Shown: in pieces, positions 46,263 to 53,114 of the stretch
Layout: the number at the start of each line of letters is the position of its first letter
Numbering within the stretch: position 1 is the first letter of the stretch
Assembly (NCBI GenBank): GCA_017937765.1
Contig: JAGBCY010000033.1
Coordinates: forward strand, 1-64,000
Length of the DNA: 64,000 nt
Direction: 5' to 3'
Source of the DNA: Alistipes sp.
GTDB taxonomy: Bacteria; Bacteroidota; Bacteroidia; Bacteroidales; Rikenellaceae
Position numbers and translations under genes: made by a program
The notes under the pieces: model-generated
Database searches by the model: none
What the model saw: only the letters and a program-made list of their open reading frames with translations
Told to the model about the DNA's origin: nothing

Positions 46263-46270
46263 CAAATGTA
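46263..46270 (-). promoter_or_regulatory. -7 element of the glycosyltransferase gene
   Basis: Minus-strand TACATTTG, 38 nt upstream of the ATG at 46224. Identical to the -7 box of the RNA gene upstream. Confidence 0.5.
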
Positions 46271-46435: not shown

Positions 46436-46697
46436 GTAAAAAGAGGGTCTACCGAAAGATATTCGATGTAGGCAGCGAGCACCGCCACCCCTCTTAGTAA
46501 CAATACTCGCAGCTACTCGGCGCATCCGCCGTGGCATCGACGCCTGCTTTTGTGTTCTCGCCGTCGCGGCCGCAGTCTGTGTCCCTTGACTGCCTGCCGC
46601 ACGTCGCACAACCTGCTCCGTAGCTTGCGACTATTGCTACAATCTTCCGATAGGCCCTTCCAACCTAAAACTACTAACCTAAATGAACCTTAAAACT
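46436..46697 (-). ncRNA. Candidate structured non-coding RNA, ~260 nt
   Basis: On the minus strand a near-consensus promoter is followed by a highly self-complementary stretch. Closing helix: GGGCCTATCGGAAGAT (46657-46642) with ATCTTTCGGTAGACCC (46460-46445), 15 pairs and one mismatch. After one unpaired base comes a second helix, 46640-46620 with 46516-46497 (9+5+5 pairs, including GCTAC/GTAGC). The 36-nt bulge on the 3' side holds a hairpin at 46471-46486. The ~100-nt apical part contains GCAGTC/GACTGC (46572-46577/46588-46593), GGCG/CGCC (46519-46530) and others. A U-tract (46442-46438) follows the closing helix. No ORF runs through it. It lacks RNase P, tmRNA and SRP signatures that I know. 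Structure is read by eye; function unknown. Confidence 0.7.
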
Positions 46698-46703
46698 TCG
46701 TTG

Positions 46704-46735
46704 CAAATGTAAGGGGTATTATTTAAATTTCCAAA
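46704..46735 (-). promoter_or_regulatory. Promoter of the candidate ncRNA
   Basis: Minus strand: TTTG (46735-46732), 20-nt spacer, TACATTTG (46711-46704), in an AT-rich region. One of the best promoters in the window; predicted start near 46697. Confidence 0.75.
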
Positions 46736-52908: not shown

Positions 52909-53090
52909 GCGTGATGCAAAGCGGTGCGTGCGGTGTGAAACTGCTGCGTGATGCAAAGCGGTGCGTGCGGTGTGAAACTGTTGCGTGATGCAAAGCGGTG
53001 CGTGTGTGATTGAAACTGCGCGTGTGATATAGAGTGGTACGTGTGCGATGTAAGGCTATGCACGTGTGATGTAAAACAGAAAGAGTACAA
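52909..53090 (+). repeat. 37-bp tandem repeat in the ior leader
   Basis: GCGTGATGCAAAGCGGTGCG begins units at 52909, 52946 and 52983, exactly 37 bp apart and almost identical; a fourth (from 53020) and part of a fifth are strongly decayed. It lies between the promoter and the iorA start codon, so it should be transcribed as untranslated leader. The period is not a multiple of 3. Confidence 0.92.
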
Positions 53091-53114
53091 TACAAACCTA
53101 AAAACTATAACGCT

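Follow-up and report, generated by a model that had tools for sequence, protein, structure and literature searches.

What does the minus strand encode in the ~260-nt stretch that precedes a glycosyltransferase gene in the window (the whole 64,000-nt stretch of Alistipes DNA analysed here), and how might its product act? The initial annotation, made from the letters alone, had proposed a structured RNA transcribed from its own promoter and ending in a U-tract. Both features were recovered by sequence reading on the minus strand: a TTTG element is followed, after a 20-nt spacer, by TACATTTG, and an RNA of ~262 nt runs from a predicted +1 into a TTTTT tract (Table 1). The MFE of this RNA is −105.9 kcal/mol (z −4.50), and none of 200 shuffled sequences folded equally low. 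The opposite strand also has a strong fold (z −4.27); because the antisense folds almost equally well, the direction of the RNA was taken from the promoter, the U-tract and terminator, and the homologues. The stretch has no convincing ORF, as had been claimed, but it is not strictly ORF-free, since it is overlapped by short ORFs of 58 aa (minus strand) and 47 aa (plus strand); ATG is absent from the leader, its most conserved part. No Rfam match reached the gathering score anywhere in the window, in agreement with the stated absence of RNase P, tmRNA and SRP RNA, and the RNA stretch itself gave nothing but a chance CRISPR-repeat match (E 8.3). At eight loci bearing relatives of the RNA, the Rfam search returned only tRNAs at E ≤ 1. 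The stretch almost certainly encodes a real RNA family without a match in the Rfam library searched.

Table 1. Features of the RNA gene and its promoter in the window
Feature	Position	Strand	Basis
Promoter element −33, TTTG	46732..46735	-	Sequence; (T)TTG at the equivalent place in homologues
Promoter element −7, TACATTTG	46704..46711	-	Sequence; homologues mostly TAnCTTTG(CA)
Small RNA, ~262 nt, predicted +1 at 46699, end in U-tract	46438..46699	-	Promoter, U-tract, homologues
Near-invariant 40-nt 5′ leader, proposed seed region	46660..46699	-	Homologue comparison
Leader block 1, GAAGUUUUAAGGUUCA	46684..46699	-	Changed in 2/13 variant copies read
Putative anti-start-codon stretch, GUUCAUUU; final three letters are the variable A/U spacer	46681..46688	-	Pairs AUG in predicted gdhA, gcvT and GH43 duplexes
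Putative anti-UTR-box stretch, GUUUUAGGUU, in leader block 2	46662..46671	-	Predicted target pairing at ~−22 to −12
P1 helix, 5′ strand	46642..46658	-	Homologue alignment and fold
P2 helix, 5′ strand	46620..46640	-	Homologue alignment and fold
P2 apical extension, 103 nt	46517..46619	-	Comparison with first homologue set and fold
P2 helix, 3′ strand	46497..46516	-	Homologue alignment and fold
Junction strand UAAGAG (conserved CUAAGA begins at 46497)	46491..46496	-	Homologues and fold
P3 hairpin with GCGGUGCUCGC	46470..46490	-	Homologues and fold
P1 helix, 3′ strand, doubling as terminator stem	46444..46460	-	Homologue alignment and fold
U-tract (TTTTT) of intrinsic terminator	46438..46442	-	Sequence reading

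The paired ends, the second helix of ~19 bp and the multi-hairpin apex described initially all reappear in the fold, as an outer helix P1 (16 bp), a helix P2 (19 bp) with a 103-nt apical part of several hairpins, and a side hairpin P3. The helices meet in a three-way junction, whose third arm had been taken for a one-sided bulge. The 5′ 40 nt, the most conserved part, lie outside both long helices. The window copy measures 257 nt to the end of P1, compared with 122–157 nt in the 29 other copies of the first homologue set; its apical extension is GC-rich and adds ~100 nt relative to these copies.

The first homologue set came from a DNA search of 61 genomes, which yielded 30 loci. The homologues have the promoter and a 5′ leader sequence, GAAGUUUUAAGGUUCAUUUAGGUUAGUAGUUUUAGGUUGG, in common, and their bodies are diverse. 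A scan of named genomes found at least 120 stretches, and among the matches listed 119 were titled Alistipes or Rikenellaceae and one 'Bacteroidales bacterium'. All 139 distinct copies agree in the 8 nt that precede, and are not part of, the search pattern. Of 180 genomes of the genus, 145 have an exact match to the 35-nt core of the leader; among the 70 of high quality the number is 63. Two or three exact cores are present in 36 of the 145 positive genomes and one in the remainder, including this genome, many of these genomes being incomplete. The copy number of the RNA family is one to three per genome. When the covariance model R1 was run on the 35 core-negative genomes of the genus, an RNA with a near-identical leader was found in 13; nine of the 13 best variant copies differ solely in the A/U spacer between the two leader blocks, and four (L382, L386, L393, L394) carry a change inside a block. 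Across the family, the core was found in 20 of 61 genomes, representing 7 of 22 genera. A wider check of 295 genomes of the order gave a 20-nt match with at most two mismatches in nine, of which three are Rikenellaceae; in the other six the flanking leader sequence was absent. Near position 1510, L395 and L396 carry truncated copies that consist of leader block 2 alone, without block 1 or an obvious promoter, followed by a hairpin and a T-rich stretch, and thereby resemble 3′UTR-derived members.

Behind this leader the bodies vary. Among 133 distinct copies with enough sequence, 99 have a three-way junction, 24 a short hairpin and 10 another form, although this last class includes the window copy, owing to its apical extension, and several copies that are three-way junctions by eye. 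A further type is a bare terminator, and some homologues, by reading, reach their U-tract only after one more hairpin. In the other genera of the family, 16 of the 17 copies read consist of the leader and a short GGAAA...UUUCC hairpin, and one (L376) has a different body. Because the same leader precedes junction, short-hairpin and other bodies across copies, we regard the leader as the constant part and the body as the exchanged one. Tandem same-strand pairs of a short-body and a three-way-junction copy were seen at L009, L015, L024 and L042 (325–468 nt apart) and at L034 (1563 nt apart). At L025, a first body copy at 1598 is repeated from 1884 as a whole body including its terminator, this time leader-less.

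The three-way junction is supported by covariation. From the 99 junction copies, 94 could be trimmed, 88 of these measured 121–158 nt, and thinning left 35, of which 34 were aligned after L136, which was badly trimmed, had been left out by hand. Across 21 pairs, 95.7% of cells were paired versus 81.0% in shuffled alignments, a figure favoured by deriving the structure from the alignment on which it was tested; the double-sided changes are the stronger evidence. These occurred in 16 of the 21 pairs and amounted to 115 cells versus 29.0 in shuffles, with none of 500 shuffles as high. Sliding the partner by 1–3 columns, as a control, lowered pairing to 30–50%. Pairs that RNAalifold placed within the leader are practically invariant and thus uninformative. 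The compensatory changes, together with the RNA's own promoter and terminator and its varied gene neighbourhoods, uphold the original proposal of a free-standing structured RNA. That proposal had overlooked the near-invariant leader with its putative seed in two parts, the additional copies that some genomes carry and the FopS-like layout discussed below.

What could such a leader do? Its reverse complement resembles a translation start, with AACCUAAAAC near −20 and AAAUGAACC. We consider it probable that the RNA is one of a family of trans-acting sRNAs that Alistipes shares with other Rikenellaceae, and that its likeliest mode of action is antisense control exerted at translation starts. The leader would serve as a two-part seed antisense to the translation start: nt ~12–19 (GUUCAUUU) would pair with the start codons of the targeted mRNAs, and nt ~29–38 (GUUUUAGGUU) with an AACCU(U)AAAAC-type stretch of the 5′UTR at ~−22 to −12. 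A ribosome would be unable to initiate on a start region paired in this way, and translation would be lowered; we infer from the position over the start codon alone that the effect would be repression rather than activation. Since members exchange the body, it is proposed to stabilise the RNA as a scaffold and to serve as its terminator. By prediction the leader is not especially open, its mean unpaired probability being 0.53–0.55 versus 0.51 for shuffled leaders, in a calculation whose 15 sister-genus copies were picked by their hairpin (the unselected count being the 16 of 17 given above).

Candidate targets were sought in a screen of 46 orthologue families comprising 1758 non-redundant start regions of Alistipes sequence, from which the loci fetched by the complement pattern (L302–L331) and loci outside the genus were excluded. 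Two families led the screen, gdhA (z −4.92, 21 thinned regions) and gcvT (z −4.47, 5 regions); the third stood at z −2.38 and none exceeded +2. None of 100 dinucleotide-shuffled leaders matched the value of the best or the second family. An earlier, smaller screen that included L302–L331 had the same two families on top. The two entered by different routes: gdhA had been fetched after its boxes caught the eye in two members, and gcvT as a neighbour of gdhA, not for its complementarity. The five gcvT regions, a small number, come from this genome and four genomes of the gdhA search. In this genome, gdhA starts at 645 and gcvT at 1946 on the same contig and strand (gcvT by its Pfam assignment, GCV_T), with predicted duplexes of −19.5 and −23.3 kcal/mol, respectively. 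The predicted duplexes place nt ~12–19 over the AUG and nt ~29–38 over the 5′UTR at ~−22 to −12; a loop falls close to the variable spacer. This register over the start codon is common to all five gcvT regions, to the gdhA genes of L255, L266 and L271, and to the GH43 gene of L055, whose duplex, at −32.1 kcal/mol, is the strongest single one predicted in the first screen, which covered 121 loci. At the gdhA gene of L246, block 1 is predicted to lie on the UTR box instead, and weak orthologue pairing also exists (L242, −10.2). We tentatively name gdhA (glutamate dehydrogenase) and gcvT (glycine cleavage T protein) as the best current candidate targets; through them, the RNA would control amino-acid catabolism.

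The gdhA signal is not confined to lineages with the RNA. Of 30 gdhA loci fetched as a control (L332–L361), 29 were read, one was without an ORF and two sister-genus loci were left out, leaving 26 other-family genomes in which the RNA was not found; their gdhA regions still bound the leader better than shuffles (z −3.45, 0/200, mean −15.35). Part of the gdhA signal is therefore a general character of its 5′UTR. The mean duplex is nevertheless −21.1 in Alistipes versus −15.4 in other families. Two sister-genus gdhA genes show no more than moderate pairing (−16.3 and −15.1). The stronger pairing in Alistipes may reflect either coevolution or a favourable ancestral UTR.

A more far-reaching form of the proposal would make the RNA family a translational master switch throughout the Rikenellaceae: its near-invariant anti-start seed of two parts would adjust many mRNAs, in a set that differs between species but has gdhA and gcvT at its core; we regard this as rather unlikely. 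On this view, the leader would copy a translation start of general form in antisense, and the AACCU(U)AAAAC box found before many start codons would serve as an sRNA-response element, which we hold to be no less doubtful. Several results also speak against the antisense reading as such. Leader k-mers in 1235 Alistipes start regions showed no clear enrichment over dinucleotide-shuffled leaders, with 71 versus 71.0 at k = 8 and 13 versus 7.1 at k = 10, where 16 of 200 shuffles were as high. The overall duplex energies of the real leader were weaker than those of 8 shuffled leaders. The pattern AACCTTAAAACTT-N2-14-ATG was present in 67 of 180 genomes, sRNA self-matches included, versus 3 for the reversed pattern. 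Of thirty pattern loci fetched, two turned out to be the sRNA; among the remaining 28, an ORF of 109 aa or longer follows in 25, but these are mostly different genes. With mostly unlike genes behind it, and the sRNA itself as its sole match in this genome, the pattern taken alone was rejected as the mark of a conserved regulon.

Some box words are locally frequent. In the 45 nt before starts of an own-genome sample (L162–L181 and the window), AACCTAA (15 versus 2.5 expected under a first-order model) and CTAAAAC (15 versus 2.6) were the top over-represented 7-mers after the promoter-box words. AACCTAA was also frequent in Alistipes neighbourhood loci (12 versus 3.2 expected), whereas a five-genome Alistipes sample (1 versus 1.7), the sister genus (2 versus 1.1) and five other families (3 versus 1.8) gave no such excess. 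A global enrichment of the box was not upheld against dinucleotide-shuffled leaders, and the counts are reported as an observation only. The S46 peptidase was likewise rejected as a conserved target; boxes lie upstream of both paralogues here, but 30 orthologues gave z −0.65.

How does the RNA compare with known systems? According to PMC7366714, GibS has a conserved 5′ region (nt 1–38) that forms an extended seed with two seed stretches pairing around start codons, a terminator, and a non-canonical PM2 promoter. The FopS family is described in PMC11697453 as 14 sRNAs with a conserved 5′ stretch and a terminator that repress susC translation, an effect counteracted by RbpB, which binds FopS RNAs within their 5′ portion; 12–15 paralogues are reported there for Bacteroides species, one FopS is 3′UTR-derived, and the family is stated to have been deposited in Rfam. 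The Alistipes RNA has the conserved 5′ region of 30–50 nt typical of GibS and FopS and a 3′ Rho-independent terminator, seen in the window as a stem and U-tract. It resembles GibS in a highly conserved 5′ region as the putative seed over start codons, in the two seed stretches and in the terminator, and differs in having no Rfam match, in that the PM2 promoter is that of GibS, and in its body. It resembles FopS in its canonical Bacteroidota promoter, its predicted pairing at translation starts and its paralogues in some genomes, and the 3′UTR-derived FopS member has a likeness here in L395 and L396, which lack block 1 and an obvious promoter. It differs from the FopS RNAs, on that description, in having no match in the Rfam library searched, in its copy number (1–3 here versus 12–15 in Bacteroides species), in the mostly three-way-junction form of the Alistipes copies, and in its candidate targets, the best families here being amino-acid catabolic and not susC, yet with a GH43 gene giving the strongest single duplex. 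Because no sequence link was found and the likeness is one of description, we say that the RNA would work like FopS without filing it as FopS.

Other explanations of the locus were weighed against antisense control. The leader might instead be a protein-binding sponge, its repeated U-rich AGGUU units (UUUUAAGGUU, AUUUAGGUU, UUUUAGGUU) titrating an RNA-binding protein, for example one with an RRM, in a CsrB-like manner, with mRNA pairing secondary or absent. The leader does hold three such related units, its near-invariance over 40 nt would exceed the need of one target, and RbpB contacts the 5′ portion of FopS RNAs according to PMC11697453. Two orthologue families with conserved predicted pairing over the start codon speak against it, as does a regex search of the fetched sequences that found no RRM-like protein, although this negative is weak because the search was crude and covered only part of each genome. 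We judge a sponge unlikely. A 6S-like RNA that binds RNA polymerase, a fold the initial annotation had thought possible, would share with 6S RNA (RF00013) and 6S-Flavo (RF01685) a free-standing, structured nature and a comparable size; the long, stem-closed form and the genus relatives without any 6S RNA over the cut-off could be taken in its favour. Neither model, however, matches in the genus: RF00013 was found in 0/61 relatives at E ≤ 0.001, with no match in the window and 5 of 14 control genomes positive, and RF01685 in 0/61 over the cut-off, with the 14 control genomes all negative too. The RNA here is moreover a three-way junction without a bubble, and its short members are no more than leader and hairpin, which makes a 6S-like role very improbable. 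In other families of the order, L031 (G049) and L032 (G051) gave sub-threshold 6S-Flavo matches of 42.9 and 35.8 bits (cut-off 85), which are possible 6S RNAs.

The same-strand glycosyltransferase downstream of the RNA raises the thought of a cis-acting 5′ leader or attenuator, but the RNA ends at its own terminator, a second TACATTTG box lies upstream of the glycosyltransferase (46263–46270), and the other copies adjoin different genes in both orientations, so that a cis role has very little in its favour. Scarcely credible, finally, is a conserved DNA element (a repeat, a recombination or a mobile-element site) that is not an RNA at all. Multiple copies in some genomes and a near-invariant 40 bp would suit such an element, whereas the compensatory base changes, a promoter at a fixed distance and a terminator would not. 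The pattern was found in 0 viral contigs, and matches to phage and plasmid records were weak (E 0.1 or worse among the matches listed, in unrelated hosts), so a phage or plasmid origin was rejected.

Among the papers listed in literature searches, none was seen to describe a trans-acting sRNA for Alistipes or Rikenellaceae. An Alistipes motif from a structured-RNA survey of the human microbiome, placed by PMC8040213 49 bp upstream of L20, differs from the RNA here, judged by its place. If trans-acting antisense control is correct, a near-invariant seed across several genera with exchanged scaffolds would extend control of the FopS and GibS type beyond Bacteroidaceae, and would point to small-RNA control of amino-acid breakdown in abundant gut bacteria. 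The analysis yields directly testable targets and the covariance model R1. One further possible target lies in the window itself, where AAACCTAAAAACTATAACGCT (53085–53114) stands just before a gene with POR_N and TPP domains, which by reading we take to be indolepyruvate ferredoxin oxidoreductase-like.
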